Shown here one piece after another: positions 584 through 35,916 of a DNA stretch of 64,000 bases; the stretch's first letter is position 1, and the number at the start of each line of letters is the position of its first letter. The stretch comes from Phytoactinopolyspora halotolerans (GTDB taxonomy: Bacteria > Actinomycetota > Actinomycetes > Jiangellales > Jiangellaceae), in assembly GCF_010550675.1 (NCBI RefSeq), contig NZ_JAAGOA010000017.1, forward strand, positions 1-64,000. Direction: 5' to 3'. Under the pieces are notes generated by a model. It did not search any database. It had not been told where the DNA came from and saw only the letters and a program-made list of their open reading frames with translations. The translations under genes and the position numbers were made by a program.

Positions 584-711
584 CGTCAGCGGTTGGTTGA
601 GGCCGACGAGCCACAGCCGATCGTCTTGGCCCCAGGGACAAGTCGGAAGACTCGCGGCGCTGTCTATTCTTGCCCCAGCCGGACCGGATCCGGGCCGGGA
701 TGGGAGCGCGG

Positions 712-2277: not shown

Positions 2278-3492
2278 ATGCCAGAACGCGGGACACGGAC
2301 GGTGTTCGTCGGTGGCGAGGTGTTCGACGGATCACGCGCGGCACCGGTGGCGGCAGACGTCGTCATCGAAGGCGGCCGCATCGTGGCCGTCGGCGCCGGC
2401 CTGGACGGTGACGTGGCGGTGGACGCGACCGGCCGTGCCATCCTGCCCGGGCTGATGGACTGTCACGTCCATGTGATGGTCGACAGCGTGGACCTGATGG
2501 CACACCTGCAGCGCCCGTTCTCGTACGCGTTCTACCTGGCGATCGGCCACTTGGCCGCGATGCTTGACTGCGGGATCACCACGGTGCGCGACGCCGGAGG
2601 AGCCGACCTCGGAGTCAAGCAGGCGGTGGAGGACGGATTGATCGAGGGGCCCAGGATGAAGACCGCGATCTCCATCCTGGGGCAGACCGGCGGCCATACC
2701 GACGGCTGGCAGCCCAGCGGGATCGACGCGTCGCTCTTCCCGCCGCATCCGGGGCGCCCGGATCCGATCGTGGACGGCCCGGACGAGATGCGGCGTAAGG
2801 TACGCGAACTCGTGCGTGCCGGCGCGGACGTGATCAAGATCTGCACCTCGGGTGGGGTGGTGTCCCCTCGGGACGATCCTCGTCATGCGCATTTCGGCGC
2901 GGATGAGCTGGGTGTCTGCGTGGCCGAGGCGTCGGCGGCGGGCATCTCGGTGATGGCCCATGCCCAAGGAGCCGCCGGCATCAAGAACGCCATCCGCGCC
3001 GGCATCCGGTCGATCGAGCACGGCATCTACCTCGACGACGAGGCCATCGACATGATGCTCGATGCCGGCACGTTTCTGGTGCCGACGTTGTCCGCCCCGC
3101 AAGCGGTGATCGATGCGGCAGCGGCGGGGGCAGCTCTGCCCGACGTCGTCGTGGCGAAGGCGCACGAGGTCGTCACGGTGCATCGGGAGTCGTTCGCCAA
3201 GGCCGTCGCCGCGGGTGTGCGGATCGCGATGGGCACCGACAGTGGCGTGGGACGGCACGGAGACAATCTGACGGAGCTCGCGCTGATGACGGGTGCCGGC
3301 ATGAAACCGGACGAGGTGCTGGTGGCGGCGACACGTACCGCCGCCGAGCTGCTCGGCGTCGATCGCGAGCTGGGCACCATCGAGCCGGGAAAGCGCGCCG
3401 ACCTGGTGCTGGTGGACGGTGATCCTTTCGACGTGGCAGCCCTCAAGTCGAACATCTCCGCGGTGTACAAGGACGGTCGCCGAGTGCGCTGA
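2278..3492 (+). CDS. Metal-dependent amidohydrolase, prolidase/Xaa-Pro dipeptidase-like (Met_dep_hydrolase_A type)
   Basis: A 404-residue amidohydrolase-superfamily enzyme. The beta/alpha-barrel metal ligands are visible in order: HxH at His63/His65 (DCHVHV), Lys187 in VIKICTSGG (the lysine usually carboxylated), His228 in VMAHAQG, His248 in IEHG, and Asp321 in MGTDSG. The C-terminal GTIEPGKRADLVLVDGDP strand completes the small beta-domain. Relatives with this motif set hydrolyse Xaa-Pro or Xaa-Arg/Lys dipeptides or N-acyl amino acids, which fits a neighbour role in peptide use. ATG 2278 is preceded by GAGGGG at 2262-2267 (10-base spacing). GTG 2302 is a shorter alternative. It is probably co-transcribed with the upstream D-aminoacylase. 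Substrate is inferred, not seen. Confidence 0.8.
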   Translation: MPERGTRTVFVGGEVFDGSRAAPVAADVVIEGGRIVAVGAGLDGDVAVDATGRAILPGLMDCHVHVMVDSVDLMAHLQRPFSYAFYLAIGHLAAMLDCGITTVRDAGGADLGVKQAVEDGLIEGPRMKTAISILGQTGGHTDGWQPSGIDASLFPPHPGRPDPIVDGPDEMRRKVRELVRAGADVIKICTSGGVVSPRDDPRHAHFGADELGVCVAEASAAGISVMAHAQGAAGIKNAIRAGIRSIEHGIYLDDEAIDMMLDAGTFLVPTLSAPQAVIDAAAAGAALPDVVVAKAHEVVTVHRESFAKAVAAGVRIAMGTDSGVGRHGDNLTELALMTGAGMKPDEVLVAATRTAAELLGVDRELGTIEPGKRADLVLVDGDPFDVAALKSNISAVYKDGRRVR

Positions 3493-3734
3493 ACCGCGCC
3501 GCCCTCCCGTCATCATCAACCGTGAGCCACACGATGATGCGCCGAGCCGACGTGCTGAACCAGCGGCGCCGCCCCGCCCCGGCTCCAGGTGGAACCGGGA
3601 TCACCTCACCGACGGCGAGATGACCGTTAGGTAGATGCGACAAATTCTCTGGGGCCAACTCGTTCATCCGGCCAAAGACTGCGAACGTGATCCAGGCCAC
3701 GCTTACCAGAACGCCGGCCCTCGAAGGAGTTGTC

Positions 3735-5372
3735 ATGCGCATCAGACCAAAGCACGCGGCCGCCGGATCCGCCCTTACGGCACTGACGCTGCTCGTCGCG
3801 GCCTGCGGTGCGGACAGCGCCACCGGCGGCGACGACGGCGGCGGTGGTGGTGACGGAAGCACGGGCGCTGGTGCGGAACTCGCCGTGGACGGGACGTTCA
3901 CGACCTCCGTCACGGCAGACCCCGGAAACCTGCATCCGCATCTGACGGTCCTGTCGGCGACCCGCACCGTCGATGCGTACATGTACGACAAGCTCGTGTA
4001 CTTCAGCCAGGCCGGCGAGGAACTCCCGTGGCTGGCCGAATCTTGGGACGTCCAGCCCGACTCGGTCACCTACACCCTGTCCGAGGGTGTGACGTGCTCC
4101 GACGGGTCACCGTTGACGGCCGGCGACGTCGCCGCCAACTTCGAGTTCGTCACCGACGAGGCCAACGAATCACCGGTCCGTGGCGCTCTGGTTCCAGCGG
4201 AGATCGATGTCTCGTTCGACGACGACGCCCGGACGGTGACGCTCGCCGTCGACGAGCCCGACCCGTTCCTGCTGCACAGTACCGGCGAACTCTTCATCGC
4301 CTGCCGGGCCGGGCTGGACGACCCCTCGTTGCTCGAACGGGAGGGCATCGGCACCGGCATGTACGAGCTGACCGAAGCCGTGGCCGACGACCACTACACC
4401 TTCGAACGCCGCGACGACTACACCTGGGGCCCGGGCGGCGTCGCGGCCTCCGAACCCGGGACCGCCAAGACGATCACGCTGCGGGTGATCGCGAACGAGT
4501 CGACCGCCGTCAACCTCTTCCTCTCCGGTGAGCTCGATGCCGTCGAGGCGGTCGGCCCCGACCGGCAGCGGCTGGAGGGTCAGTACGAGCAGGTCTCCAT
4601 GCGTGGCGTGGTGGGGGAGCTCTTCTTCAATCAGGCCGACGGGCGGCCCGGGCAGGACCCCGAGGTGCGGGCGGCACTCGCCCAAGCTCTGGACTTCACT
4701 GAGCTGATGTCGGTGATCACGGGCGGCTACGGCGAGATGTCCCGGATGGCCGCTGCCATACAGCCGGCGGCGTGTGACTACGACGCCGTCGCCGGCCACC
4801 TGCCCGCAGCGGATCCGGAGGCGGCTGCCGCAGCGCTCGACGCGGCCGGGTGGGCAACGGGATCAGGCGGAACGCGGACGAAGGACGGCTCCGAACTCTC
4901 GGTGCAGCTGATCTACAACAGCACCCGCGGCGACAGCACGGCCGCGGCCGCGGAGCTGATCGCTCAGAAATGGAACGAGATCGGGGTCGCCACCACCGCG
5001 CGGGGTATGCCACCGACCGAATACAACGAGGTCGTGTTCGGTACCGGTGAATGGGACGCCGCGCTGCTCCCGATCAACCTGCGGCTCCCCAGCCAGCTGG
5101 TGCCGTTCGTGTCCGGACCCACGCCGGCCGACGGCGGAGTCAACCTGGCGCATCTGCAGAACGAGGACTATACGGCCGCGGTCGGCGAGGCGATGGCCAT
5201 TCCCGGTGCCGAGAGCTGCGAGAAATGGCAAGAGGCCGAGGAAGCACTACTCGAGGCGCGCGATGTGGTGCTCTTCGCCGACGAGGTCATCCCGACCTTC
5301 CTGAACGGTCTCACGGTCGAGCGCGGCGGTGACGGACTGGTAGCCCCGACCATCAGGCTGCAGGCGCAATGA
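3735..5372 (+). CDS. Peptide ABC transporter substrate-binding lipoprotein (SBP family 5)
   Basis: A 545-residue extracytoplasmic solute-binding protein of the DppA/OppA class. The start at ATG 3735 has AAGGAG (3724-3729) five bases upstream and gives a clean lipoprotein signal: MRIRPKH, a hydrophobic stretch, then the lipobox LVAAC with Cys24. A Gly/Asp-rich linker follows, then the family-5 body (DGTFTTSVTADPGNLHPHL; YTLSEGVTCSDGSPLTAGDV). It captures oligopeptides or related solutes at the membrane surface for the permeases that follow. The stop overlaps the next ATG by four bases (ATGA), so translation is coupled. An upstream gap of 242 bases holds no gene and may carry a promoter. Ligand is unknown; context suggests D-amino-acid-containing peptides. 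Confidence 0.92.
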   Translation: MRIRPKHAAAGSALTALTLLVAACGADSATGGDDGGGGGDGSTGAGAELAVDGTFTTSVTADPGNLHPHLTVLSATRTVDAYMYDKLVYFSQAGEELPWLAESWDVQPDSVTYTLSEGVTCSDGSPLTAGDVAANFEFVTDEANESPVRGALVPAEIDVSFDDDARTVTLAVDEPDPFLLHSTGELFIACRAGLDDPSLLEREGIGTGMYELTEAVADDHYTFERRDDYTWGPGGVAASEPGTAKTITLRVIANESTAVNLFLSGELDAVEAVGPDRQRLEGQYEQVSMRGVVGELFFNQADGRPGQDPEVRAALAQALDFTELMSVITGGYGEMSRMAAAIQPAACDYDAVAGHLPAADPEAAAAALDAAGWATGSGGTRTKDGSELSVQLIYNSTRGDSTAAAAELIAQKWNEIGVATTARGMPPTEYNEVVFGTGEWDAALLPINLRLPSQLVPFVSGPTPADGGVNLAHLQNEDYTAAVGEAMAIPGAESCEKWQEAEEALLEARDVVLFADEVIPTFLNGLTVERGGDGLVAPTIRLQAQ

Positions 5373-6385
5373 CGACAGCATCCGCGCCACTCACCACGGC
5401 GAGGGGCGAGGCCGCCCTCGGCCGCGTCAGCTGGGTGCGGAACCCGTGGGTCGTCTTTCTCGCCAGGAGGCTGGGACGGCTGCTCGTGTCGGTGGCGTTC
5501 CTGGTCACGCTCGCGTTTCTGATGATCCACCTGATTCCCGGCGATCCGGTGCGCGCGGCTCTCGGGATCAGTGCGCCCCCGGAGCTGGTCGCGGCCAGGC
5601 AGGAGAGCCTCGGTCTCAACGACCCGATCGTCGTGCAGTACGTGAACTACGTGAAGGCCTTGTTCAGCGGTGATCTCGGGGTCTCGATGACCTCGGGCGT
5701 CGCTGTTTCGGAGACGATCGGGCAGCGCCTGCCGGCGTCGGCCGGCCTCGCGGCCGGCGCGTTCACCGTCGTCATGATCGTCTCGATCCCGCTCGGCCTG
5801 TGCATGGCGGTGCTCACCCGGGGCGGCCGGCGGCGTGGAACCGAGCTCGGATTCACCTCCACCAGCGCCGTGGTCGCCGCCATCCCGGAATTCCTGCTTG
5901 CCGTCGGGCTGGTCTTCGTCTTCGGCGTGACGCTCGGTTGGCTTCCGGTCGCCGGGCGGGATGGCCTGTCGTCCTACATCCTGCCGGTGCTCGCGCTCTC
6001 GCTCGGCCCGGCGCTGCTGATGGCGCGCATCGTGCGGGTCGAGGCGCTGAGCGTCCTGGAGCAGGACTTCGTCCGCACGGCGCGCGCCAAACGGCTGCCG
6101 CACTGGCGGGTGTACCTGCGGCACGTGTTTCCCAACGCCCTCACCTCGACGTTGACCATCGGCGGGCTATTGCTCAGCGCGATGATCGTGGGAACGGTGC
6201 TGGTGGAGAACGTCTTCGCCTGGCCCGGAATGGGCATGACCATCGTCCAGTCGATCCTGTCCAAGGACTACCCCCTGGTCCAGGGCATCGTTCTGGTCTA
6301 CGGGGTGGCGGTACTGCTGGTGAACCTGCTGGTCGATCTCATGCTTGCCGTCGTCGACCCGCGCTCCACCATCCGGGAGGCGTGA
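5369..6385 (+). CDS. Peptide ABC transporter permease, DppB/OppB type
   Basis: Inner-membrane permease of 338 residues, a little longer than most DppB because of a 25-residue cytoplasmic lead. The first membrane segment is LVSVAFLVTLAFLMIHLIPG, followed by the periplasmic GDPVRAALG region typical of DppB. Five further hydrophobic helices follow. The EAA coupling loop DFVRTARAKRLPHWRVYLRH docks on the ATPase. ATG 5369 overlaps the stop of the binding protein (ATGA), and ATG 6387 of the next gene starts one base after this stop. It forms the translocation pore together with the permease half of the next, fused protein. Confidence 0.93.
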   Translation: MTTASAPLTTARGEAALGRVSWVRNPWVVFLARRLGRLLVSVAFLVTLAFLMIHLIPGDPVRAALGISAPPELVAARQESLGLNDPIVVQYVNYVKALFSGDLGVSMTSGVAVSETIGQRLPASAGLAAGAFTVVMIVSIPLGLCMAVLTRGGRRRGTELGFTSTSAVVAAIPEFLLAVGLVFVFGVTLGWLPVAGRDGLSSYILPVLALSLGPALLMARIVRVEALSVLEQDFVRTARAKRLPHWRVYLRHVFPNALTSTLTIGGLLLSAMIVGTVLVENVFAWPGMGMTIVQSILSKDYPLVQGIVLVYGVAVLLVNLLVDLMLAVVDPRSTIREA

Positions 6386-6386
6386 G

Positions 6387-8285
6387 ATGCGACTGGAACA
6401 CTGGCGCAGCGCAATGCGCAGCCCGGTGGGCGCGGTAGCCGCCACATTGTTGGCGGCGTTCGCCGTGCTGGCCGTCATCGCGCCCATGATCTGGGGCGAT
6501 GCGGCCGAGGAAACCGAGCCGGCCGCCCTGTCGCAGGGGTCCAGCTCGGAACACCTGCTCGGTACCGACGCGCTGGGCCGGGATATCGCACTGCGGGTCC
6601 TGGTGGCCACCCGGTTCTCGCTCGGCCTCGCCCTGATGGCCACGTCGATCTCGGTGGTGATCGGCATCATCCTGGGGGTGCTGCCCGCGGTGCTCGGGCG
6701 GCGGACCGGCCGGTTGGTGGTGGCCGTGGTCAACCTGGCGGTCGCCTTCCCGGCGCTGCTGCTGGCGCTGGTCTTCGCGGTGGTATTCGGCATCGGCTCA
6801 CACGGTGCGGTCCTCGCGATCGGAGCCGCCGGCGCCCCGTCGTTCGCCCGGCTCGTGCAGACCAATGTCGCGTCCGTGGCGGGCCGGGACTACGTCTCTG
6901 CCGCACGCGTGGCCGGTGTGAGCCGGCTGCGGCTGGTGGTCCGGCACCTGTTGCCGAACATCGGTGAGCCGCTGGTGGTCAACGCCACGGTGATGGCCGG
7001 TACCGCGCTGCTCGCCTTCGCGGGCCTGTCCTTCCTCGGCCTCGGTGTGCAGCCACCGTCGTACGACTGGGGCCGGTTGCTCGGGGAAGGGCTGGACCGG
7101 ATCTATCTCAATCCCGCGGCGGCACTGGCGCCGGGGGTGGCCGTCGTCCTGGCCGGTCTGGCGTTCACCCTGATGGGAGAGGCGATCGCGCAGGTGGTAG
7201 GGATCCGGACGGGCATGTTCCGGACGCTGGATGCTGCGCCTGTTCCCGTCGCCCGCGCCGAGTCGGCGGGTGACGACGACGCGGTGCTGGTGGCCGAGGA
7301 CCTTCGCGTCGCCTTCCCCGCCGCCGGCGACGGCTGGACCCGTCCGGTGGACGGAGTGAGCCTGACCGTTCGGCGCGGAGAGACGGTGGGCATCGTCGGC
7401 GAGTCGGGGTCCGGGAAGAGCCTGACCGCCCTGGCTCTGGCCAGGCTGACGCCGGAGAACGCGGCGGTGTCGGCCACCCGGCTGGAGTTCGCCGGCGAGC
7501 CGTTGCTCGGCCGCTCCGACGCCGAGGTCGGCCGGCTTCTCGGCACCTCGCTGGCGATGGTCTTCCAGGACCCCATGACCTCGTTCAACCCGTCGATGCG
7601 GGTGGGCGCGCAGCTTGCCGAGGTCACTCGTACCCATGAGGGGCACAGCCGCGAGGAGGCACTGGAGCGTGCGGTCGACCGGCTGCGGAAGGTGCACATC
7701 CCGGTACCTGAGCGGCGTGCGCGACAGTACCCGCACGAGTTCTCCGGTGGAATGCGCCAGCGGGCCATGATCGGTATGGGGTTGATGAGCACTCCCTCGC
7801 TGATCATCGCCGACGAACCGACCACCGCGCTGGACGTGACGGTGCAGCGGCAGGTGCTGCGTCTGCTCCGCGACGTCCAGCGCGACTCGGGCGCGGCAGT
7901 GGTGCTGATCTCGCACGACATCGCTGTGGTGTCGCAGATGTGTCAGCGCATCGTCGTCATGTACGCCGGACGGATCGTGGAGGAGCTGCCGGTGGACCAG
8001 CTGGCGTCGGCGGCCCATCCGTACACCCGTACGCTGTTCGGGTCGGTACCGGACATGACCACGGACCGGGAGCGGCCGCTGGCCACCATCCCCGGGCGGC
8101 CGCCGGATCCGGGTGCGCGGCCCGGTGGCTGCGCCTTCGCGCCGAGATGCACATTCGCCGACGAGCGATGCGCCGAGGCGCCGGAACTCGCCGTGGTGGG
8201 TGCCCGTCAGCGGGCGGCGTGCTGGCATCCACGGCAGGAACCGGTGCCTGTGACGGCCGCGGCGGAGACGGGAGACCGGATATGA
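6387..8285 (+). CDS. Fused peptide ABC transporter permease (DppC type) and ATP-binding protein (DppD type)
   Basis: A single 632-residue polypeptide joining two transporter parts usually made separately. Residues 1 to about 285 form a DppC-like permease: N-terminal helix AAFAVLAVIAPMIWG, the LLGTDALGRDI motif, EAA loop DYVSAARVAGVSRL and GLSFLGLGVQPP. After a short linker comes a complete DppD-type ATPase: Walker A GESGSGKS (from residue 338), signature EFSGGMRQRAMIG, Walker B LIIADEPTTALD, and the C-terminal peptide-transporter extension with a Cys cluster (GGCAFAPRC). ATG 6387 has GGGAGG at 6375-6380. The stop overlaps the next ATG (ATGA). Permease-ATPase fusions of this type are known in actinobacterial Dpp systems. 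No frame break or internal stop is present at the junction. Confidence 0.93.
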   Translation: MRLEHWRSAMRSPVGAVAATLLAAFAVLAVIAPMIWGDAAEETEPAALSQGSSSEHLLGTDALGRDIALRVLVATRFSLGLALMATSISVVIGIILGVLPAVLGRRTGRLVVAVVNLAVAFPALLLALVFAVVFGIGSHGAVLAIGAAGAPSFARLVQTNVASVAGRDYVSAARVAGVSRLRLVVRHLLPNIGEPLVVNATVMAGTALLAFAGLSFLGLGVQPPSYDWGRLLGEGLDRIYLNPAAALAPGVAVVLAGLAFTLMGEAIAQVVGIRTGMFRTLDAAPVPVARAESAGDDDAVLVAEDLRVAFPAAGDGWTRPVDGVSLTVRRGETVGIVGESGSGKSLTALALARLTPENAAVSATRLEFAGEPLLGRSDAEVGRLLGTSLAMVFQDPMTSFNPSMRVGAQLAEVTRTHEGHSREEALERAVDRLRKVHIPVPERRARQYPHEFSGGMRQRAMIGMGLMSTPSLIIADEPTTALDVTVQRQVLRLLRDVQRDSGAAVVLISHDIAVVSQMCQRIVVMYAGRIVEELPVDQLASAAHPYTRTLFGSVPDMTTDRERPLATIPGRPPDPGARPGGCAFAPRCTFADERCAEAPELAVVGARQRAACWHPRQEPVPVTAAAETGDRI

Positions 8286-9424
8286 GGGAGTTGGTGTTTC
8301 GGGACGTCACCGTCCGGTTCGGCTCCGGTCATGGCGCCATCAACGCCGTCGACGGCGTGGACCTCGCCGTCCCGGCGGGTACCGTCGTCGGGCTGGTGGG
8401 CGAATCCGGGTCGGGGAAGTCGACTCTGGCCAAGGCCGCGGTCGGTCTGGTTCCCACGGCCGGCGGTGAGATCCTCCTGGACGACGTCGTGATGAGGCGT
8501 GCCCGGGACCGCCGTCGGCTGCAGATGGTCTTCCAGGACCCCTACTCGTCGCTGGACCCGAGGATGACGGTCGGCGACTCGATCGCCGAGGCCCTGCCGG
8601 GCCGCCGGGGCCGGGCGGCGCGCCGCTCCGAGGTAGCCCGACTGCTGGAGCTGGTGGACCTGGACCCGGCACGAGCCACCGAACTGCCGTCCGGTCTGTC
8701 CGGCGGGCAGCGCCAGCGGGTGGCGCTGGCCCGCGCCCTGGCAGCCGACCCGGAGGTGATCCTCGCCGACGAGGTCACCTCGGCGCTGGACGTGTCCGTC
8801 CAGGGCGCGGTGCTGAACCTGATCCGCGACCTGCAACGACGTCTAGGCCTGAGCATCCTGTTCATCTCGCACAATCTCGCCGTGGTGCGGTACGTGAGTG
8901 ACCTGATCGCCGTGATGTATCTGGGGCGGATCGTGGAGGTCGGCCCGGCCGCTGACGTGCTGAGCGCTCCGCAGCATCCGTACACCAGGACGCTGCTGGA
9001 TGCCGCGCCGCGGCTGGGCGCCTCGCTCGATGACGCCGTCCCGGCCGACAACGAGATCCTCGACGAGGAACCGCCGTCCCCGCATGACCCGCCGCCGGGG
9101 TGCCGGTTCCATCGCCGTTGCCCGATCGGCCCGCTGGTCGTCACCGACCGCACGATCTGCGCTGAGCAGGATCCGCACATCGACGCGGTCTCCCGGCCGC
9201 ACCGCGCCGCGTGTCACTTCGCCGGAGGCGAACATGTGAATGGTGCCGGAGGCGAACATGTGGATGGTGCCGGAGGCGAACATGTGGATGGTGCCGGAGG
9301 CGAACATGTGGATGGTGCCGGAGGCGGACGTGTGAATGGTGCCGGAGGCGGACGTGTGGGCGGTGCCGGAAGCGAAGACGCGAGCAGTGCCGGAAACCAG
9401 GTTCGGGAGGTGCCGACTCGATGA
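8282..9424 (+). CDS. Peptide ABC transporter ATP-binding protein, DppF/OppF type, with repeat tail
   Basis: A 380-residue ATPase subunit. Walker A GESGSGKST lies near residue 40, the signature LSGGQRQRVALARAL near 139, and Walker B reads LADEVTSALD, with Val where Pro is usual (DEPTSALD). The oligopeptide C-terminal Cys region PGCRFHRRCP is present. After residue 313 the protein ends in a low-complexity tail made of an eight-residue repeat (consensus HVDGAGGE), encoded by a 24-bp tandem array and not part of the ABC fold. ATG 8282 overlaps the previous stop (ATGA), and its own stop overlaps the next ATG (ATGA), so five genes from 3735 on are translationally linked. It pairs with the ATPase half of the preceding fusion. 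Confidence 0.92.
   Translation: MRELVFRDVTVRFGSGHGAINAVDGVDLAVPAGTVVGLVGESGSGKSTLAKAAVGLVPTAGGEILLDDVVMRRARDRRRLQMVFQDPYSSLDPRMTVGDSIAEALPGRRGRAARRSEVARLLELVDLDPARATELPSGLSGGQRQRVALARALAADPEVILADEVTSALDVSVQGAVLNLIRDLQRRLGLSILFISHNLAVVRYVSDLIAVMYLGRIVEVGPAADVLSAPQHPYTRTLLDAAPRLGASLDDAVPADNEILDEEPPSPHDPPPGCRFHRRCPIGPLVVTDRTICAEQDPHIDAVSRPHRAACHFAGGEHVNGAGGEHVDGAGGEHVDGAGGEHVDGAGGGRVNGAGGGRVGGAGSEDASSAGNQVREVPTR
9221..9400 (+). repeat. 24-bp coding minisatellite (about 7.5 units) at the 3' end of the DppF-type gene
   Basis: Units start at 9221, 9245, 9269, 9293, 9317, 9341 and 9365, with a partial unit from 9389. The first four are almost identical. Units 5 and 6 carry GGACGTG in place of AACATG, and unit 7 is decayed. 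Each unit encodes eight residues near HVDGAGGE, so copy-number changes keep the frame. The array is open in several frames. Confidence 0.95.
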
Positions 9425-12400
9425 CCCGTCGACTGACTGCGGACGACCTGTTCCGGCTGGAGGTCCCGGCGCAGCCGGCGATCTCGCCGGATGGATCCAC
9501 CGTGGTCTATGTGCTCACCTCGGCCGACCGCGAGGCTGACGAGAACCGCTCGGCGCTGTGGGCGGTGCCTTCCACGGGTGACGCCCCGCCGCGGCGGCTG
9601 ACGCGCGGCCCGGCTGACTCGTCGCCCGCGTGGTCTCCGGACGGTACGCACGTCGCGTTCCTGCGCGCGGACGACGGGCCGGCCCAGCTGTGGGTGCTGC
9701 CCGTCCACGGCGGTGAGGCCGAACGCCTGACGTCGCTCCCGGCAGGAGCCGGCGCTCCGGTGTGGAGTCCCGACGGGACTCGGATAGCCTTCGCCGCGGC
9801 CGTCGATACGTACGCCCTGGCCGGTGAGGACGACGCGGCACGGCAGCGCCGGTCCACCGCGCCGATCGTCATCGACCGGCTCGGTTACCAGGCCGACGGA
9901 GCGGGCCTGCTGCGCGGCCTGCGCACGCACGTGTTCGTCGTCGACGTCGACGTCGACACAGGCGTCGGCACCGGCGACGGAAACAGCAACGGCAGCGGCG
10001 ATGGAACCGGCGCCGTACGGCAGGTCACCTCCGGAGACTGGCACGCGAGCTCCCCGGCGTGGTCGCCGGACGGAGGGCGGCTGGCGTTCTCCGCCGCGAT
10101 GGCGCCGGACGCCGACCTCACCGCCGAGGCGGCCGTCTACGTCGCAGATCTGGGCGACGACGCCACCGAGCCGGTCTGGCGCGTCGTGGGGGACCCGCAC
10201 GGCCTCGCCGGCCCGGTAACCTGGTTTCCGGGCGGCGACGCTGTGCTCGTGGTCGGCCGTCGCGAGGTCGGCATCGGGCATGATCGGCTGCTGCGGGTAC
10301 CGCTCGACGGCGGTGAGACCGTCGACCTCACCGCGGGCTTCGACCGCAACGTGATGCCCGGCGGCCCCGGCTACCCGGGCGGGCTGCCGCAGTTCACCGC
10401 CGACGGCTCTCGTATCGTCTTCTGTGCCCGGAATCGTGGCTGCACTCATGCGTATGCCGTCGACGCCGACGGAGGCGAGCCGCGCCTCGTCGTCGGCGGA
10501 GGCGACCGTGTGGTGTCGGGACTCACGGTGGCGGGCGCCGCCGGCGGGTCCGCCGCCGTGGTGGTCGCGTCGCCGGATTCGTACGGTGAGGTCGCGGCGG
10601 TCGATCTGGACACCGGTGAGGAGACGATCGCGACCGATCACGCCGTCGCCGACGTCGAGCTGTTCGTGCCCGAAGAGCGGGTCTTCACCGTTTCCGACGG
10701 CACCGACGTCCACGGCTGGTTGATCCGCGATCCGGACGCGCCGACGCCCGCTCCGCTCCTGGTCGACGTGCACGGCGGCCCGCACAACGCGTGGAGCCCG
10801 GTGCCGGACCGCGGCCATGTGTATCACCAGCTGCTGGCCGCCCGCGGCTGGACCGTTCTGCTCCTCAATCCGCGCGGCAGCGACGGCTATGGCGAGGACT
10901 TCTTCACCGCCGCCGTCGGCGCCTGGGGGCTGGCCGACGAGCGCGACTTCCTGGACCCCGTCGATGAACTGGTGGCCGACGGCGCCGCCGACCCGGCGCG
11001 GCTGGCCCTCTGCGGCTACAGCTACGGCGGGTACATGACCTGCTGGCTGACCGGGCGTACCGGCCGGTTCGCCGCGGCCGTCGCGGGCGGAGTGGTATCC
11101 GATCTGGCCAGCATGGCGGGCACGTCGGACATGGGGCACCTGCTGGTGAAGCTGGAGACGGCGTTGCCGTTCGAGGACCCGGAGCGGTGTGCCGCCCAGT
11201 CGCCGTTCGTCAACGTCGCGAAGGTGACGACACCCACCCTGATCCTGCACGGCCTGGCCGACGACCGCTGCCCACGCGGCCAGGCCGAGCAGTGGTACGG
11301 CGCGCTGCGGGCTCGTGGCGTACCGTCCCAGCTCGTCCTCTATCCCGGAGCGTCGCACCTGTTCATCCTCGACGGCAGGCCGTCACACCGGCTGGACTAC
11401 GCACGCCGCATCGTCGACTGGATCACCCGGCACACCACCGAGACCACGACACAGACCACCACGAAGGAGAGGCCCATGACCAGCACCGCACTCGACCAGG
11501 AACACTGGGAACGGCGCCTCGCCGAGCTGGCGAAGAAGTACAACGTGCCCGGTGCCGCGCTGGGCATCGGCCGCGGCGAGGAAACGCTCGAGGCAGCGTA
11601 CGGCGTCACCAACGTGGACACCGGCGTGGAGGTCACCACCGACACGCTCTTCCAAATCGGTTCGATCACCAAGGTGTGGACGGCGACGGTCGTCATGGCG
11701 CTGGCGGATGCGGGCAAGCTGGACATCGACGAACCGGTGGTGACGTATCTGCCGGAGTTCGCGCTCGCCGACGACGACGTGACCCGACGGGTTACCATGC
11801 GCCACCTGCTGACCCATACCAGCGGCATCGACGGCGACTTCTTCTTCGACTCCGGACGTGGCGACGAGTGCCTGGAGCGCTACGTCGAGGCGCTGGCCGG
11901 TCTGCGGCTGAACCATCCGCTCGGGGCGACCTGGTCCTACTGCAACGCCGGCTTCACGACGGCGGGACGGGTGATCGAGAAACTCACCGGCCAGGTGTGG
12001 GACGCGGCGATGAAGGAGCTGCTGTTCACGCCGCTGGGCCTCGGCCACACGGTGACGTTGCCGGATGATGCGCTGCTGTACCGGACGGCGGTGGGCCACG
12101 TCCACGAGGGCGACGAGGAGCCGCGCCGGGCCCCGGTGTGGGTGTTGCCCCGGTCCGCGGGGCCGGCCGGGTTGATCGCGTCGACCGTCGGCGACGTGCT
12201 CACCTTCGCCCGGATGCACCTGTCCGGTGGGGCGGCGGCGGACGGCACGCGGGTGCTCTCGGACGAGTCCACCGCGGCGATGCAGGCCGACGAAGTGCGG
12301 CTGCCCGACCCGTACACCCTCGCCGACTCGTGGGGTTTGGGCTGGTTCCGGCTGGACTGGAACGGCACCCGGCTGGTCGGCCATGACGGCAACACCATCG

Positions 12401-12849
12401 GCCAGTCGGCGTTCCTGCGGATCTTGCCCGAGCAGAACATGGCCGTCACCTTGCTGGCCAACGGGGGTGCCACCCGAGACCTGTACGAGACACTCATTCG
12501 CGAGGTGTTCCGGGAGGTCGCCGGGGTGGAGATGGCGACGCCGCTGGTCCCGCCGGACGAACGGGTGGACGCTGACATCACGCCGCATGTGGGCACGTAC
12601 GAACGCACCAGCGTGCGCATGGACGTCTGGCAGGGCGACGAAGGGCCGCGGCTGCGGCTGACCGACACGCATGATCTGGCCGGCCTGGAACGCGAGGTGA
12701 AGGAGCTCGATCTGGTGCCGGTACGGGAGAACCTGTATCTGGTACGGTTCCCCGGCGCGGAGACCTGGATGCCGGTCACCTTCTACGCGCTGGACGACGG
12801 CACGCCGTACATGCACCTCGGCGCTCGGGCCACCCCCAAGTCCGCATGA
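9421..12849 (+). CDS. S9-family prolyl oligopeptidase-type peptidase fused in frame to a serine beta-lactamase-fold hydrolase
   Basis: One open frame of 1142 residues holds two enzymes. Residues 1-685 are an S9 acylaminoacyl-peptidase-like protein: an N-terminal beta-propeller with TolB-like ISPDGS and WSPDGT blades, then an alpha/beta-hydrolase with the triad Ser534 (CGYSYGGYM), Asp614 (ADDRCP) and His646 (GASHLF). A threonine-rich linker (HTTETTTQTTTKERP) leads to residues 686-1142, a class-C/D-aminopeptidase-like beta-lactamase-fold domain. Counted from its own Met, it has Ser63xxLys66 (GSITK), Tyr155 in WSYCNAG, and HDGNTIG near 303. No stop separates them, yet a strong ribosome site and ATG at 11476 could start the second domain alone. 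ATG 9421 overlaps the transporter stop. Likely role is peptide trimming after import; the second domain may act on D-residues, esters or amides. True antibiotic resistance is not implied. Confidence 0.88.
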   Translation: MTRRLTADDLFRLEVPAQPAISPDGSTVVYVLTSADREADENRSALWAVPSTGDAPPRRLTRGPADSSPAWSPDGTHVAFLRADDGPAQLWVLPVHGGEAERLTSLPAGAGAPVWSPDGTRIAFAAAVDTYALAGEDDAARQRRSTAPIVIDRLGYQADGAGLLRGLRTHVFVVDVDVDTGVGTGDGNSNGSGDGTGAVRQVTSGDWHASSPAWSPDGGRLAFSAAMAPDADLTAEAAVYVADLGDDATEPVWRVVGDPHGLAGPVTWFPGGDAVLVVGRREVGIGHDRLLRVPLDGGETVDLTAGFDRNVMPGGPGYPGGLPQFTADGSRIVFCARNRGCTHAYAVDADGGEPRLVVGGGDRVVSGLTVAGAAGGSAAVVVASPDSYGEVAAVDLDTGEETIATDHAVADVELFVPEERVFTVSDGTDVHGWLIRDPDAPTPAPLLVDVHGGPHNAWSPVPDRGHVYHQLLAARGWTVLLLNPRGSDGYGEDFFTAAVGAWGLADERDFLDPVDELVADGAADPARLALCGYSYGGYMTCWLTGRTGRFAAAVAGGVVSDLASMAGTSDMGHLLVKLETALPFEDPERCAAQSPFVNVAKVTTPTLILHGLADDRCPRGQAEQWYGALRARGVPSQLVLYPGASHLFILDGRPSHRLDYARRIVDWITRHTTETTTQTTTKERPMTSTALDQEHWERRLAELAKKYNVPGAALGIGRGEETLEAAYGVTNVDTGVEVTTDTLFQIGSITKVWTATVVMALADAGKLDIDEPVVTYLPEFALADDDVTRRVTMRHLLTHTSGIDGDFFFDSGRGDECLERYVEALAGLRLNHPLGATWSYCNAGFTTAGRVIEKLTGQVWDAAMKELLFTPLGLGHTVTLPDDALLYRTAVGHVHEGDEEPRRAPVWVLPRSAGPAGLIASTVGDVLTFARMHLSGGAAADGTRVLSDESTAAMQADEVRLPDPYTLADSWGLGWFRLDWNGTRLVGHDGNTIGQSAFLRILPEQNMAVTLLANGGATRDLYETLIREVFREVAGVEMATPLVPPDERVDADITPHVGTYERTSVRMDVWQGDEGPRLRLTDTHDLAGLEREVKELDLVPVRENLYLVRFPGAETWMPVTFYALDDGTPYMHLGARATPKSA
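11464..11478 (+). promoter_or_regulatory. Internal ribosome-binding site and ATG inside the S9/beta-lactamase frame
   Basis: AAGGAG at 11464-11469 lies six bases before ATG 11476, which is exactly in frame with the upstream peptidase. It is as good as the best Shine-Dalgarno sequences in this window and lies where a separate beta-lactamase gene would begin. The cell could therefore make both the 1142-residue fusion and a free 457-residue hydrolase. Confidence 0.6.
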
Positions 12850-13012
12850 GCGGCGAGACGCCGAGCGAGTGGAGTGGACGGCGGAGCGAGGAACGAGCGG
12901 AGGCGTCCGTGGAGCGAGCGAGAAGTCGAGCGCGACTAGAAAACATGAGCGGCGAGACGCCGAGCGAGCGGAGCCGTCCGTGGAGCGAGCGAGAAGTCGA
13001 GCGCGGCCAGAG
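12845..13012 (+). repeat. GAGCG-rich dispersed repeat, two copies in direct orientation
   Basis: Copy 1 starts at 12845 and overlaps the stop of the fused hydrolase gene. Copy 2 starts at 12944 and runs to the M20 start. Both begin CATGAGCGGCGAGACGCCGA and share a later block ending in GAGAAGTCGAGCGCG. Copy 1 has about 29 extra bases in the middle. The core GGCGAGRCGCCGAGCGAG also recurs in the array near 35.7 kb. The stretch is otherwise non-coding. Confidence 0.85.
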
Positions 13013-14140
13013 ATGATGAGCACAGACCGACCGGACCTCGAGGCGATGGTGGCCGACCTCGGCTCCCTGGTCGGGTGCGAGTCGCCGTCGTCGGACCTGA
13101 CGGCGGTGGCTCGCGGCGCCGACGTCGTCGCGGAGCTAGGTTGCCGGCTGACCGGTGCCGCGCCAGAGCGGCTGATTCTGGACGGCTGCACTCACCTGCG
13201 GTGGAGCTTCGGCGAGGGTGACCGGGTACTGCTGCTCGGCCACCAGGACACGGTGTGGCCGATCGGTTCGTTGGCGGACCATCCTTGGCGGGTCCAGGAC
13301 GGCGTGGCCTACGGGCCGGGCTGCTTCGACATGAAGGCCGGCCTGGTGCAGTTGTTCCACGCACTGGCGTCGCTGTCGTCGCTCGACGGTGTCACCGTCC
13401 TGATCACCGGCGATGAGGAACTCGGTGCGCCGACGTCGCGCCGGCTGATCGAGGAGGAGTCGCGCCGGGTGGCTGCGGCCCTCGTCCTCGAAGGCAGCGC
13501 GGACGGCGGCGCGCTGAAGACGTCGCGGAACGGCATCGCCCAGTACGAGCTGCGGGTACACGGCCGCGCGGCGCACGCCGGACTGGAGCCGTGGAACGGG
13601 GTCAACGCCTCGGTCGAGCTGGCGCACCAGATTCTCGCGCTCACCGCCCTCGACGGCGGATCCGCGGGCGGCGCCACGGTCACGCCGACCGTCGTCGCCG
13701 GCGGCACCACCATGAACACCGTGCCGGCCGAGGCCTCGGTCCGGGTCGACGTGCGTGTGCCCACCGGGGCGGAAGCGCGCCGGGTCGACACCGCGATCCA
13801 CGCGCTGGCGCCGCGACTGCCGGGGGCGCGGCTGGAGGTCATGTCCGGTCCCAGCCACCCGCCCCTGGAGGCTGCGGCGTCAGCCGAGCTGTACCGGCTG
13901 GCCGAGGAGCTGGCCGCCGCGCATGGGATGCCGCCGCTGGGAGGGGCGCACGTCGGCGGTGCCTCGGACGGCAACATCGCCGCCGGGGTGGGAACGCCGA
14001 CACTGGACGGCCTGGGCGCTGTCGGCGGGGGAGCGCATGCCCCCGGCGAGCACGTGCGGGTGGCGGAGATGCCGCTGCGCGCAGCGCTCCTGGCGGACCT
14101 GGTCGTGAGGCTACAGAAGGAACGGAGCGTGCAGCGATGA
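13013..14140 (+). CDS. M20-family metallo-amidohydrolase, probable N-succinyl/acyl-L-amino-acid deacylase
   Basis: A 375-residue zinc hydrolase of the M20 clan (carboxypeptidase G2/ArgE/DapE relatives). Di-metal ligands can be read in order: GHQDTVWP (His and catalytic Asp), DMKAG (bridging Asp), TGDEELG (general-base Glu and ligand Glu), and the late His in HAPGEH. The dimerisation-domain His is in RAAHAGLEPW. Two adjacent ATGs (13013, 13016) follow a weak ribosome site donated by the repeat upstream. The stop overlaps the GNAT start by four bases (ATGA). In a three-gene run with a GNAT enzyme and an N-succinylamino-acid racemase, the likely job is release of L-amino acids from their N-succinyl form. 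A general peptidase or acylase function is the alternative. Confidence 0.85.
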   Translation: MMSTDRPDLEAMVADLGSLVGCESPSSDLTAVARGADVVAELGCRLTGAAPERLILDGCTHLRWSFGEGDRVLLLGHQDTVWPIGSLADHPWRVQDGVAYGPGCFDMKAGLVQLFHALASLSSLDGVTVLITGDEELGAPTSRRLIEEESRRVAAALVLEGSADGGALKTSRNGIAQYELRVHGRAAHAGLEPWNGVNASVELAHQILALTALDGGSAGGATVTPTVVAGGTTMNTVPAEASVRVDVRVPTGAEARRVDTAIHALAPRLPGARLEVMSGPSHPPLEAAASAELYRLAEELAAAHGMPPLGGAHVGGASDGNIAAGVGTPTLDGLGAVGGGAHAPGEHVRVAEMPLRAALLADLVVRLQKERSVQR

Positions 14141-15084
14141 GCGACGGATCGAGGCCGGCCACCGTCGACGCGGTACGGCTGGAGCCGGGAGCCGGGATCT
14201 CCACGTCCGTCGTGGCTCAGGCCGCCGAGTCGGCGCACCGGGCGGCGGAACGGTCGGGGGTAGAGGTACGGGTCCTGCACGAACTTGTCGAGCTGACCAG
14301 CGTCGTCGATCTGTTCGACCGGATCTGGCGGCCGGACGGCAACAGTCCGCTGGTCAACATCGAGCAGTTACGGGCGTTGAGCCACGCCGGGAACTATCTG
14401 GCCGGTGCGTTCGACGACGGCCGGCTGGTGGGAGCGTGTGTCGGCTTCTTCGCTGCGCCGCCGGGCGTCGGCCTGCATTCGCATATCGCCGGGGTGGCCG
14501 GAGAGGCGCAGGGCCGCAGCGTGGGCTTCGCGCTCAAGCTGCACCAGCGGGCGTGGGCCCTGGAACGGGGCCTTGCCGAGATCACCTGGACCTTCGATCC
14601 GTTGATCCGGCGTAACGCGTACTTCAACCTGGTCAAGCTCGGCGCCCGCCCACGGGAGTACCTCGTCGACTTCTACGGCCAGATCGATGACGCCATCAAC
14701 GCCGGTCAAGGCACCGATCGGCTGCTCGTGGCATGGGACCTCACCGCTGACGTCGTCGTGCGGACGTGTTCCGGCGACCGGTCCGAGCTGGATCAGGCGC
14801 GCCTGCAGGCGGACGGCGCCGTCATCGGCCTGTCCGAGGACGGCACGGGCGGGCCGGCGACGGCACCCGCGGCGGTCCGGCGCGACGCGGCCACCGTCCT
14901 GGTCCGCACACCACCGGACGTGGAGGCGCTCCGGCGCTCGGATCCGGAGACCGCGCGCCGATGGCGGTTCGCCCTCCGGGACGTCCTCGGCGAGCTGCTC
15001 GACGACGACGCGCAGGTGACCGGGTTCTCCAGAGCGGGCTGGTACGCGGTGCACAGACCGAGACACGCCAGGAGGCCGTCGTGA
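14137..15084 (+). CDS. GNAT-fold acyltransferase, candidate D-amino-acid N-succinyltransferase
   Basis: A 315-residue protein of the large GNAT type (COG3375-like), about twice the size of a minimal GNAT. The acyl-CoA-binding region is recognised in GEAQGRSVGFALKLHQRAWA, and the conserved block ITWTFDPLIRRNAYFNLVKL follows. ATG 14137 overlaps the M20 stop (ATGA), with GGAG at 14124-14127. The stop overlaps the GTG of the racemase gene (GTGA). Proteins of this kind sit next to N-succinylamino-acid racemases. In a characterised Geobacillus pathway a GNAT enzyme succinylates D-amino acids from succinyl-CoA. That role is inferred here from the gene order and family only. Confidence 0.8.
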   Translation: MSDGSRPATVDAVRLEPGAGISTSVVAQAAESAHRAAERSGVEVRVLHELVELTSVVDLFDRIWRPDGNSPLVNIEQLRALSHAGNYLAGAFDDGRLVGACVGFFAAPPGVGLHSHIAGVAGEAQGRSVGFALKLHQRAWALERGLAEITWTFDPLIRRNAYFNLVKLGARPREYLVDFYGQIDDAINAGQGTDRLLVAWDLTADVVVRTCSGDRSELDQARLQADGAVIGLSEDGTGGPATAPAAVRRDAATVLVRTPPDVEALRRSDPETARRWRFALRDVLGELLDDDAQVTGFSRAGWYAVHRPRHARRPS

Positions 15085-16205
15085 AACTCACCGGGTTCGA
15101 ACTGATCCGGGTCGCCATGCCGCTGGTGGCGCCGTTCCGGACGTCGTTCGGCGTCGAGCATGAACGAGACGTGCTGATGGTGCGGGCGGTGACGCCGGAC
15201 GCCCATGGCTGGGGTGAATGCGTCGCGATGAGCGAGCCGCTGTACTCGTCCGAGTACGTGGACGGCGCCGCCGACGTGATCCGCCGGTTCCTGGCGCCGC
15301 GGCTGCTGGCGGCCGGAGAGCTCCACCCGCACCAGGTGTGCGACCTGCTGGAGCCGATGAAGGGGCACCGGATGGCGAAAGCGGCGTTGGAGACCGCCGT
15401 TCTGGACGCGTGGCTGCGGGAGCGGGGCGAGTCCTTCGGCGCCCACCTCGGGGCGGTGCGCGACCGGGTGCCGGCCGGGGTGTCCGTCGGGATCATGGAC
15501 ACCATTCCGCGGTTGCTGGATGCCGTCGACGGCTACCTGGCGCAGGGGTATCTGCGGATCAAGCTGAAGATCGAGCCCGGCTGGGACGTCGAACCGGTGC
15601 GGGCGGTCCGGGAGCGGTTCGGGGATGAGCTGCTGCTTCAGGTGGATGCGAACGCCGCCTACACGCTGGCGGACGCCGCCACCCTGGCTCGCCTGGACGC
15701 CTTCGACCTGCTGCTGATCGAGCAGCCGTTGGCCGAGGACGACCTGCGACAGCACGCCGAGCTGGCCCGGCTGGTCCGCACCCCGATCTGCCTGGACGAG
15801 TCGATCGTGTCGGCCAAGGTGGCCGCGGACGCGATCGCCCTGCGGGCTACCCGGGTGATCAACATCAAGCCGGGCCGCGTCGGCGGATACCTGGAGGCGC
15901 GCCGGATCCATGACCTGTGCCAGGCGCACGGGATCCCGGTCTGGTGCGGCGGGATGCTGGAGACCGGGATCGGGCGGGCGGCGAACGTGGCGCTGGCCGC
16001 ACTGCCCGGGTTCAGCCTGCCGGGTGACACGTCGGCGTCGGACCGGTACTACGCACAGGACATCACCGAGCCGTTCGTGCTCGGCCCGGACGGGCACGTC
16101 GAGGTGCCGTCCGGCCCCGGGATCGGTATCGAGCCGGTGGCCGACGTGCTGCGTGCCCGGACCACGAGTTCGCAATGGCTGGGAGCCGGCGACCTGGGTT
16201 CGTAA
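15081..16205 (+). CDS. N-succinylamino-acid racemase / o-succinylbenzoate synthase-family enolase
   Basis: A 374-residue enolase-superfamily enzyme of the muconate-lactonising subgroup. Catalytic and metal residues fall at Lys161-x-Lys163 (RIKLKIEPG), Asp189 (VDANAAY), Glu214 (LIEQPL), Asp239 (LDES) and Lys263 (INIKPGRVGG). This matches the Lys163/Asp189/Glu214/Asp239/Lys263 pattern of the Amycolatopsis racemase. Arg266 after Lys263, a marker of the NSAR/OSBS subfamily, is also present. GTG 15081 has a perfect AGGAGG (15070-15075) and overlaps the GNAT stop. It should epimerise N-succinyl-D- to N-succinyl-L-amino acids. Because no other men genes are nearby and GNAT and M20 partners are, racemase is preferred over a menaquinone role. 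Confidence 0.88.
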   Translation: MKLTGFELIRVAMPLVAPFRTSFGVEHERDVLMVRAVTPDAHGWGECVAMSEPLYSSEYVDGAADVIRRFLAPRLLAAGELHPHQVCDLLEPMKGHRMAKAALETAVLDAWLRERGESFGAHLGAVRDRVPAGVSVGIMDTIPRLLDAVDGYLAQGYLRIKLKIEPGWDVEPVRAVRERFGDELLLQVDANAAYTLADAATLARLDAFDLLLIEQPLAEDDLRQHAELARLVRTPICLDESIVSAKVAADAIALRATRVINIKPGRVGGYLEARRIHDLCQAHGIPVWCGGMLETGIGRAANVALAALPGFSLPGDTSASDRYYAQDITEPFVLGPDGHVEVPSGPGIGIEPVADVLRARTTSSQWLGAGDLGS

Positions 16206-16206
16206 G

Positions 16207-17859
16207 ATGCTGCAGATGGTGCACCGGCCGCGCGCAACGCTCAGCCGCGTCATGGACGATCTCGGGTCGACGCTGCTGGAGGTCGTCGCGGGCCGGGTCG
16301 ATCCGGCCACCGGTGTGGGCGGCGTCGTCTTCCACGATCCGCTGGATCCGCCGGACCTCGCGGAACGAGCACTGGTGCTCGGTGTCGGATTGGCGGGAGC
16401 CGAGGAGATCGCGTCGGTGATCCGGGAGATCGGCAAGGCCGATGCGGCGGGCCTGGTGGTGCGGGTGCCGGTGGAGACCTCGCGCGCGGTGCGCGATGCC
16501 GTGCGCGACACCGGGGTCGTCCTGTTCGGGCTCACCAGGGGAGCGTCCTGGGCACAAGTGGCGACGCTGCTGCGCTCGTTACTCGCGGTGGACGACCTCG
16601 GCGGCGGTGACGACGGCGAAACGCTGGCCGGAGCGGCCGCGGGGGATCTGTTCGCCCTGGCCGGGGCTGTCTCCGAGCTGCTGGGTGGTCCGGTGACCAT
16701 CGAGGACCTCAACTCCCGGGTGCTGGCGTTCTCCGCGGACCAGGGCCGGGCGGACGAGCCGCGCAAGGAGACCGTGCTGGGCCGGCAGGTACCGGAGCGG
16801 TACACCCGGGAGCTGGAGCGGCGCGGAGTCTTCCGGGCGCTGTACGGTTCGGACCAGCCGGTCTACGTCACGGGTTTGGCCGGCGTCGACCTTCCCCGGG
16901 TCGCGGTCCGGATCCGCGCCGGCGACGAGGTGCTGGGGTCGATCTGGGCCGCGGTCACCGGGCCGTTGTCCCGGGAGCGCGAGCAGGCGTTCATCGACTC
17001 GGCGAAGCTTGTGGCGTTGCATATCCTCCGACAGCGGGCCGGTGCCGACGTGGAGCGGCGGCTGCGCGCCGAGTTGGTCGCCACCTTGCTGGAGGGCGGT
17101 CCGAGCGCGACGGAGGCCGCCGGCCGGCTCGGGCTTGCGGCGGGTTCGAGTTGTGTGCTCGCGCTCACGGTGCGCGAGCACGGTGATGCGTCGCGCCTGG
17201 AAGCCGAACTGCAGCGGATCCGCGGTGCGTTCGCGCTGCATCTGGCCGCCGTGCATCCGCGTTCGGCGGCGGCGCTGGTGGGTGGCGTGGTCTACGGCGT
17301 CATCCCGCTGGCCGCGAACGACGCCGCCGCGGACCGGCGGGCCGTCGCCGTGGCGCGCGAGTTTCTGGGCCGGATCCGAGACCACGACGCCGTTGTCATC
17401 GGTATCGGCCGGATCGCGCAGGACGCGTCGGAGCTTCCGCGGTCGCGGGCCGATGCGGACCGGGCACTCCGGGTCCTCCGGCACGGCCAGGTGCCCTCGC
17501 AGGTGGCGCGATCCGAAGACGTCTGGGCGGCGTCCATCCTGCTGGAGCTGGGCGATCTGTTGGCGGCCGAGCGGCAGGAGCCGTCCGGGCCGGTGGCCCG
17601 GCTGGCCGCCTACGACGTCAGGCACCGCGGCGTGCTGGTGGAGACCCTGCGCGCGTGGCTGGACGCGTTCGGCGACGTCCGTCGCGCGGCGGCGGCGCTG
17701 CATGTCCATCCGAACACCTTCCGGTACCGGCTGCGCCGGATCGGTGAGGTCGGTGGGATCGACCTGGAGGATCCGGAGGCACGGTTCGCCGCCATGCTGG
17801 AGCTGCGGTTGAGCCCTCGAACCCAGCGGTACCGAGAACCGTCGTGGTTTTCGGTATAA
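16207..17859 (+). CDS. PucR-family transcriptional regulator
   Basis: A 550-residue regulator. The last 60 residues hold the PucR C-terminal helix-turn-helix (AAAALHVHPNTFRYRLRRIG). The middle has the GGDEF-like/CdaR-type block seen in PucR proteins, and the N-terminal 250 residues form a sensory region. It begins two bases after the racemase stop in the same direction, so it probably senses a metabolite of the cluster and controls it. Start choice is uncertain: ATG 16207 has no close Shine-Dalgarno, and ATG 16216 or 16252 are possible. The family usually regulates purine, amino-acid or polyamine degradation. The ligand is not visible. Confidence 0.85.
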   Translation: MLQMVHRPRATLSRVMDDLGSTLLEVVAGRVDPATGVGGVVFHDPLDPPDLAERALVLGVGLAGAEEIASVIREIGKADAAGLVVRVPVETSRAVRDAVRDTGVVLFGLTRGASWAQVATLLRSLLAVDDLGGGDDGETLAGAAAGDLFALAGAVSELLGGPVTIEDLNSRVLAFSADQGRADEPRKETVLGRQVPERYTRELERRGVFRALYGSDQPVYVTGLAGVDLPRVAVRIRAGDEVLGSIWAAVTGPLSREREQAFIDSAKLVALHILRQRAGADVERRLRAELVATLLEGGPSATEAAGRLGLAAGSSCVLALTVREHGDASRLEAELQRIRGAFALHLAAVHPRSAAALVGGVVYGVIPLAANDAAADRRAVAVAREFLGRIRDHDAVVIGIGRIAQDASELPRSRADADRALRVLRHGQVPSQVARSEDVWAASILLELGDLLAAERQEPSGPVARLAAYDVRHRGVLVETLRAWLDAFGDVRRAAAALHVHPNTFRYRLRRIGEVGGIDLEDPEARFAAMLELRLSPRTQRYREPSWFSV

Positions 17860-17885: not shown

Positions 17886-17898
17886 TAAGATCATCGTG
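17886..17898 (+). promoter_or_regulatory. Candidate -10 element for a leaderless vitamin-K-carboxylase-like gene
   Basis: TAAGAT at 17886-17891 ends six bases before the GTG start at 17898, and no Shine-Dalgarno sequence lies between. That spacing places transcription start at or next to the start codon. No clear -35 box is visible. Confidence 0.4.
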
Positions 17899-35393: not shown

Positions 35394-35719
35394 ACCGGAT
35401 CGCATCCTCGATCCTCGGTATCGAGATGATCGTGGTGCTGCTGGCCGTGCCGGTGGCGATCAACCTCTCGGATGTCTCGACGACGGCGGGCTGGGTGTCG
35501 GCCGCGATCGTGGCGCTGCTGTGCTTCGCCGGTGCGGCGACGGTGCGACGAGGTCGACGGGGCTACATGATCGGGTCGGCGGCGCAGGTGGGTGCGATCG
35601 CCATGGGCTTCGTGGTGCCGATGATGTTCGTTCTGGGCGGGATCTTCACCCTGATGTGGTTCATGCTGCTCCGGCTGGGCCCGGAGGTGGAACGGCGAAG
35701 CGCCGAGCGAGCGGAGTGA
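35390..35719 (+). CDS. DUF4233 small membrane protein
   Basis: A 109-residue protein with four hydrophobic segments (ILGIEMIVVLLAVPVAI, VSAAIVALLCFAGA, YMIGSAAQVGAIAMGFVVP, FVLGGIFTLMWFMLL). It is the conserved partner located directly after folC in actinobacteria. GTG 35390 overlaps the folC stop and has GGAG at 35379-35382. Function is unknown. The last ten residues, including the stop, are encoded by the first unit of a 91-bp tandem repeat, so the C-terminus may have been rewritten by repeat insertion. Confidence 0.9.
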   Translation: MNRIASSILGIEMIVVLLAVPVAINLSDVSTTAGWVSAAIVALLCFAGAATVRRGRRGYMIGSAAQVGAIAMGFVVPMMFVLGGIFTLMWFMLLRLGPEVERRSAERAE

Positions 35720-35916
35720 ACACCGAGGGACGAGTGTGTTCGCGGAGTGAGTGAGAAGCTGAGCGTGACTGGGGTGGGTGGAACGGCGAGGCGCCGAGCG
35801 AGCGGAGTGAACGCCGAGGGACGAGTGTGTTCGCGTAGTGAGTGAGAAGCTGAGCGTGACTGGGGTGGGCGGAGCGGCGAGGCGCCGAGCGAGCGGAGTG
35901 AACGCCGAGGGACGAG
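35687..35916 (+). repeat. 91-bp tandem repeat array, 2.5 units, GAGCG-rich family
   Basis: Units begin at 35687, 35778 and 35869, each with period 91. Units 1 and 2 are nearly identical, and unit 3 is conserved for its first 48 bases. The core GGCGAGGCGCCGAGCGAGCG matches the repeat at 12845-13012. The DUF4233 stop codon falls inside unit 1. From 35917 to 36067 I see no gene, only more GAGCG-like sequence and a six-bp hairpin (35975-35992). Confidence 0.9.

Follow-up and report, generated by a model that had tools for sequence, protein, structure and literature searches.

The window analysed here, by which we mean the whole stretch of 64,000 nucleotides (nt) at positions 1 to 64,000 of contig NZ_JAAGOA010000017.1 of Phytoactinopolyspora halotolerans (assembly GCF_010550675.1), carries three overlapping genes for an M20 hydrolase, a GNAT protein and an enolase. 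This trio probably encodes an irreversible, Geobacillus-like pathway that turns D-amino acids into their L-forms, and it may be the 3'-terminal part of an operon for peptide salvage. The three genes are:

13013..14140, + strand: M20 hydrolase, predicted N-succinyl-L-amino acid desuccinylase, similar to carboxypeptidase G2 (CPG2) (Peptidase_M20 and M20_dimer matches)
14137..15084, + strand: divergent GNAT protein, predicted succinyl-CoA:D-amino acid N-succinyltransferase (Acetyltransf_1 match, model fold and homology)
15081..16205, + strand: enolase of the N-succinylamino-acid racemase (NSAR) type, usually annotated menC (MR_MLE_C match and identity to 1SJA)

The M20 open reading frame (ORF) runs from an ATG at 13013 to a TGA at 14138–14140, the GNAT ORF from an ATG at 14137 to a TGA at 15082–15084, and the enolase ORF from a GTG at 15081 to a TAA at 16203–16205. 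The genes are thus joined by an ATGA and a GTGA overlap, as a preliminary description of this DNA had claimed. That description confined the set to 13013–16205; the trio is indeed present there, whereas the conserved unit extends well beyond it.

The enolase is, by its sequence, a member of the NSAR/o-succinylbenzoate synthase (OSBS) family of the enolase superfamily and a predicted racemase of N-succinylamino acids. It matches TIGR01928 with 316 bits (cut-off 200.65) and is 70% identical over 368 residues to the NSAR/OSBS of Amycolatopsis sp. T-1-60 (1SJA–1SJD), with which it shares every catalytic residue. Because the alignment to 1SJA runs through the active site without a gap, the residues are truly equivalent: the catalytic Lys163 and Lys263, the metal ligands Asp189, Glu214 and Asp239, and the second-shell Arg266, a residue associated with NSAR activity, are all kept. 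These six residues, listed already in the preliminary description, did not vary across the 81 actinobacterial sequences compared. A role as dipeptide (L-Ala-D/L-Glu) epimerase was rejected, since the match to NF041118, at 63 bits, falls far below its cut-off of 500. Of note, residue 323 is Tyr in the window enolase and in 62 of the 81 sequences (Phe in the other 19), compared to Phe323 in the Amycolatopsis enzyme. An engineered variant of the latter carries G291D/F323Y (PMC7431475), and the natural Tyr323 of the window enolase matches one of these two changes.

The usual gene name raises the alternative that the enolase is the OSBS of menaquinone synthesis, MenC, and that its neighbours are incidental. 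TIGR01928 bears the name menC, NSAR-linked genes are annotated accordingly (in our plasmid search, all NSAR entries with an annotated racemase gene carry it), and OSBS activity is frequent in NSAR-family enzymes (PMC4215206). However, the same genome holds a separate, dedicated actinobacterial MenC (454 bits) on another contig, surrounded by menG, menF, menD, menB, menE and menA, which were recognised by sequence and, for menD, by its model as well. As this complete men locus has its own MenC, the window enolase is not needed for menaquinone synthesis. Moreover, men genes were not found around the window enolase, its linkage to GNAT and M20 is conserved, and a separate MenC is also present in 13 of 15 related NSAR-bearing genomes. 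A MenC identity is thus barely credible, and on account of the dedicated enzyme in a complete locus we ruled it out; action of the enolase solely on the menaquinone precursor 2-succinyl-6-hydroxy-2,4-cyclohexadiene-1-carboxylate (SHCHC), which the preliminary description had raised, becomes unlikely for the same reason. Given that NSAR genes are routinely annotated menC, a tie to D-to-L conversion and to peptide uptake, together with the genuine MenC elsewhere, would correct many actinobacterial annotations.

The GNAT protein is divergent, its Acetyltransf_1 match being weak (21.6 bits, cut-off 20.7). An AlphaFold model (21 sequences) yielded a predicted local distance difference test score of 91.4 and a predicted template modelling score of 0.88. 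Foldseek returned many GNAT structures (best E-value 1.4e-7, template modelling score by target at most 0.87), yet they cover about half of the model, one domain, which indicates that the protein is a GNAT fold with an additional C-terminal domain. A CoA-binding motif, RSVGFA, lies at residues 127–132. Neither single-sequence nor profile searches found a convincing solved relative, and Foldseek gave generic GNATs only. Structural modelling, proposed earlier as a check, thus gives a confident fold that does not discriminate between succinyl- and acetyl-CoA. Homologues of this GNAT (27–39% identity, E-values of 1e-23 to 1e-36) are encoded on plasmids of Priestia, Lysinibacillus, Deinococcus and Sulfitobacter, adjoining an NSAR gene in Priestia, Lysinibacillus and Sulfitobacter and lying one or two genes off in Deinococcus; the association thus extends to Bacillales, Deinococcus and Alphaproteobacteria. 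For the NSAR-linked GNATs of Bacillales, identity to the window protein is 27–31% over about 270 residues, with E-values of 1e-23 for Lysinibacillus and 1e-36 for Priestia.

For the M20 hydrolase, CPG2 (1CG2, 121 bits) is the best solved relative, and the metal-site motifs, present in the window protein, are conserved in 58 sequences. CPG2 itself hydrolyses N-acyl-L-amino acids. Whereas CPG2 acts on folates, the window M20 gene overlaps the GNAT gene, with the NSAR gene next, and this overlapping run points to N-succinyl-L-amino acids as its putative substrates.

In Geobacillus kaustophilus, the D-to-L pathway was reportedly described by Sakai and colleagues in 2006 as a GNAT succinyltransferase, an NSAR and an M20 N-succinyl-L-amino acid hydrolase, the GNAT reportedly being a succinyl-CoA:D-amino acid N-succinyltransferase. 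The window combines the same three enzyme classes in one gene set, its NSAR is of the same family, its GNAT is homologous to those linked to NSAR in Bacillales, and a Lysinibacillus plasmid has the genes in the same order, M20-GNAT-NSAR. By analogy, the window GNAT would succinylate a free D-amino acid with succinyl-CoA as donor, the enolase would use paired Lys163 and Lys263 together with a divalent metal to interconvert N-succinyl-D- and N-succinyl-L-amino acids, and the M20 hydrolase would strip succinate from the L-isomer only, pulling the sequence forward. In the window, by contrast with the Geobacillus pathway, genes for a peptide importer, an S9-S12 peptidase and a PucR regulator adjoin the trio. 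The three-enzyme route is therefore best regarded as a well-supported variant of known biology, predicted from sequence and not new in kind. The Geobacillus NSAR and L-succinylase are treated in PMC7431475. As a separate observation on the plasmid sets, those of the gammaproteobacterium Stenotrophomonas rhizophila and of Lysinibacillus fusiformis (Bacillales) have near-identical gene order and an M20 of 99.7% identity, pointing to a recent transfer or to a mislabelled or contaminated record.

We next turn to the linkage of the genes among relatives. Eighty actinobacterial NSAR loci were compared, which as the closest relatives of the window form a biased sample. GNAT lies directly upstream of NSAR in 75 of the 80, of which 56 share the 4-nt overlap between the two genes, and M20 immediately precedes GNAT-NSAR in 56 of the 76 loci having enough upstream sequence. 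Even sampling of the phylum, with 297 Actinomycetota genomes, gave 62 NSAR and 60 GNAT matches: GNAT was found within 1 kb of 51 of the 62 NSAR matches, and NSAR near 51 of the 60 GNAT matches. By genome, the two co-occur with counts of 53/7/3/234 (Fisher p = 5e-47, uncorrected for phylogeny). The search for the trio in related genomes, suggested earlier, recovered it in dozens of actinobacterial genera. Hence, where the preliminary description had seen a strong prediction in a linked set of this kind in an actinobacterium, the D-to-L function is supported, but the trio itself is common rather than special.

Several points weigh against the proposed pathway and its place in an operon. First, of the 62 NSAR places in the phylum sample, only 6 have an M20 nearby. 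M20 still co-occurs by genome (37/60 vs 17/237), but with GNAT-NSAR linkage being so common, the widespread core is GNAT-NSAR, and the strict trio is restricted to certain lineages. Second, the M20 subfamily differs: the M20s that accompany NSAR on plasmids of Priestia, Lysinibacillus and Cytobacillus belong to the M20D aminoacylases (TIGR01891, 260–269 bits), whereas the window enzyme is CPG2-like, and no full-length BLAST match was found between window-type M20s, actinobacterial relatives included, and the Bacillales plasmid M20Ds. The role as L-desuccinylase can therefore not be derived by orthology; the desuccinylase slot appears to be filled by different M20 subfamilies. Third, the comparison is indirect, as NSAR loci on plasmids served as stand-ins for Geobacillus. 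Finally, a gap of 163 nt upstream of M20 allows a separate transcript. The earlier statement that the trio comprises exactly the Geobacillus partners thus holds for the NSAR family and the GNAT homology, but not for the M20. That the window trio would work like the Geobacillus pathway, without identical partners, is nevertheless strongly supported by these sequence comparisons.

The CPG2-like M20 is also one reason to consider that the trio handles another acyl group or N-acyl compound, such as acetyl groups or environmental N-acylamino acids, while keeping its role in D/L racemisation. NSARs accept many N-acyl groups (PMC7431475), and a D-aminoacylase-like gene lies within the same run. Against this stands the relationship of the window GNAT to the NSAR-linked GNATs of Bacillales. 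The Geobacillus enzyme is reportedly a succinyltransferase. We regard a different acyl group as unlikely and favour the succinyl-based D-to-L pathway.

A further alternative has the three enzymes working in the opposite direction, L to D, and supplying D-amino acids for the cell wall or secondary metabolites; the exit would then be a deacylase specific for the D-form, for instance the D-aminoacylase-like gene. That gene opens the run in the window and lies directly before GNAT-NSAR at two loci (L034 and L049), one of which, L034 of Phytoactinopolyspora endophytica, reads D-aminoacylase-GNAT-NSAR. Yet the gene overlapping GNAT is M20, here and in most relatives, the neighbours look catabolic (transporter, peptidases), and the genomes of L034 and L049 hold an M20-GNAT-NSAR locus too. 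In P. endophytica, the latter belongs to a stretch that reproduces the window's gene order in full, beginning with the solute-binding protein and ending with the HTTM gene, with identities of 73–89%. More generally, 10 of 13 genomes with an M20-less NSAR locus hold an M20 of the same family elsewhere. In the regions fetched around these second M20s, M20 adjoins GNAT in 9 of 9; NSAR follows GNAT in five, one region stops inside GNAT at a contig end, and in the other three NSAR was not found within the region. These second M20-GNAT(-NSAR) loci suggest that loci lacking M20 are for the most part additional copies and that M20, GNAT and NSAR functionally belong together, and they weaken the case for reading a missing M20 as evidence of a reversed pathway. 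We accordingly consider the L-to-D direction highly improbable. Unlabelled neighbours of the M20-less loci are mostly transporters, regulators and metabolic genes. In Pimelobacter (L063, about 8861–10144), an M19 dipeptidase gene lies just downstream of an NSAR gene that has no adjoining GNAT.

In the window, the trio with its predicted D-to-L function is embedded in a larger run, in which all genes from 670 to 20871 are on the + strand and most junctions are short or overlapping. Apart from the gap before M20, the wider junctions are one of 194 nt ahead of the solute-binding protein and one of 109 nt ahead of the last gene. The neighbouring genes are:

670..2271, + strand: D-aminoacylase-like amidohydrolase, start at 670 or 715 (1M7J and 3GIP relatives, catalytic motifs kept)
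2278..3492, + strand: amidohydrolase, Xaa-Pro-dipeptidase-like (Amidohydro_1; NF051886 302 bits, under the cut-off of 500)
3687..5372, + strand: solute-binding protein of a peptide ATP-binding cassette (ABC) transporter (SBP_bac_5; true start may be slightly downstream)
5369..6385, + strand: ABC transporter permease, DppB type (ORF and protein sequence; conserved in relatives)
6387..8285, + strand: ABC transporter permease-ATPase fusion, DppC-DppD type (ORF and protein sequence; conserved upstream in relatives)
8282..9424, + strand: dipeptide/oligopeptide ABC transporter ATPase, DppF/OppF type (ABC_tran and oligo_HPY)
9415..12849, + strand: S9-S12 fused peptidase, S12 part from 11476 (Peptidase_S9 and Beta-lactamase in one frame)
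16207..17859, + strand: PucR-family transcriptional regulator, 1 nt past the enolase stop (PucR HTH_30 and GGDEF_2)

Among the 70 relatives with enough flanking sequence, DppF, S9, S12, M20, GNAT and NSAR occur together in 25, in 20 of which PucR is directly downstream; over all 70, PucR directly follows NSAR in 36. S9 and S12 share a single unbroken frame in the window, and of the 29 loci that link the two, 23 have the fusion; as several of these fusions lack a start codon around the junction, the fusion is genuine. For the window and J. anatolica, the junction offers an ATG with a Shine-Dalgarno sequence, so that a free S12 protein could also arise. The 297-genome sample contains only two full-length fusions, both near NSAR: that of the window and one (genome G036) about 2.6 kb from its NSAR. 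The catalytic motifs of both parts are kept in the window, those of S12 being conserved in 40 sequences, and solved relatives of the S12 part include DD-peptidase R61, alkaline D-peptidase and D-amino acid amidase. The D-aminoacylase-like gene that opens the run scores about 270 bits each to D-aminoacylase (1M7J) and N-acyl-D-glutamate deacylase (3GIP) with motifs kept, but just 168 bits to PRK09061 (cut-off 340). A literature search, in which primary papers were thinly covered, found no description of the S9-S12 fusion or of the whole operon; for the fusion, the single paper retrieved, on a degradome, was unrelated.

The transporter, the S9-S12 peptidase and the D-peptidase-like relatives of its S12 part suggest an operon that imports and cuts peptides with D-residues ahead of D-to-L conversion. 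The dipeptide ABC transporter would bring peptides in, the fused peptidase and the two amidohydrolases, one of them D-aminoacylase-like, would release D-residues, and PucR would probably control the whole unit. For this operon, we infer substrates, succinyl donor, stereospecificities, D-peptide source, regulation and co-transcription alike, whereas the sequences themselves show the order of the genes, their families, the active-site residues, the conserved linkage and the independent MenC. Peptides with D-residues could feed the trio, a source that we hold to be about as likely as not. The proposal of an actinobacterial operon dedicated to the salvage of such peptides, comprising the S9-S12 fusion, the D-aminoacylase-like enzyme and the trio with a recruited CPG2-like desuccinylase, likewise stands midway between likely and unlikely. 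If true, peptidoglycan fragments and non-ribosomal peptides would serve soil actinobacteria as nutritional sources from which D-amino acids are regained, and matched sets of racemase, L-acylase and peptidase would be on offer for the production of enantiopure amino acids.

Some minor features accompany the run. At 17898–19325, a gene for an HTTM/vitamin K-dependent gamma-carboxylase-like protein directly follows PucR, as it does in the syntenic P. endophytica locus. A tandem repeat of 24 base pairs (6.5 copies, 9221–9376) gives the DppF-like ATPase a C-terminal tail with a repeated unit of 8 residues. Related GC-rich intergenic repeats occupy 12851–13008 and 35686–35916, with spacings of about 99 and 91 nt, and their core pattern has 13 matches in the genome compared to 0 for a reversed control. 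Lastly, a short stretch with two internal stops in genome G000 (C34:355040–355240, corresponding to about 9040–9240 of locus L113) shares 42% identity with the NSAR C-terminus and is possibly the relic of a second NSAR copy.

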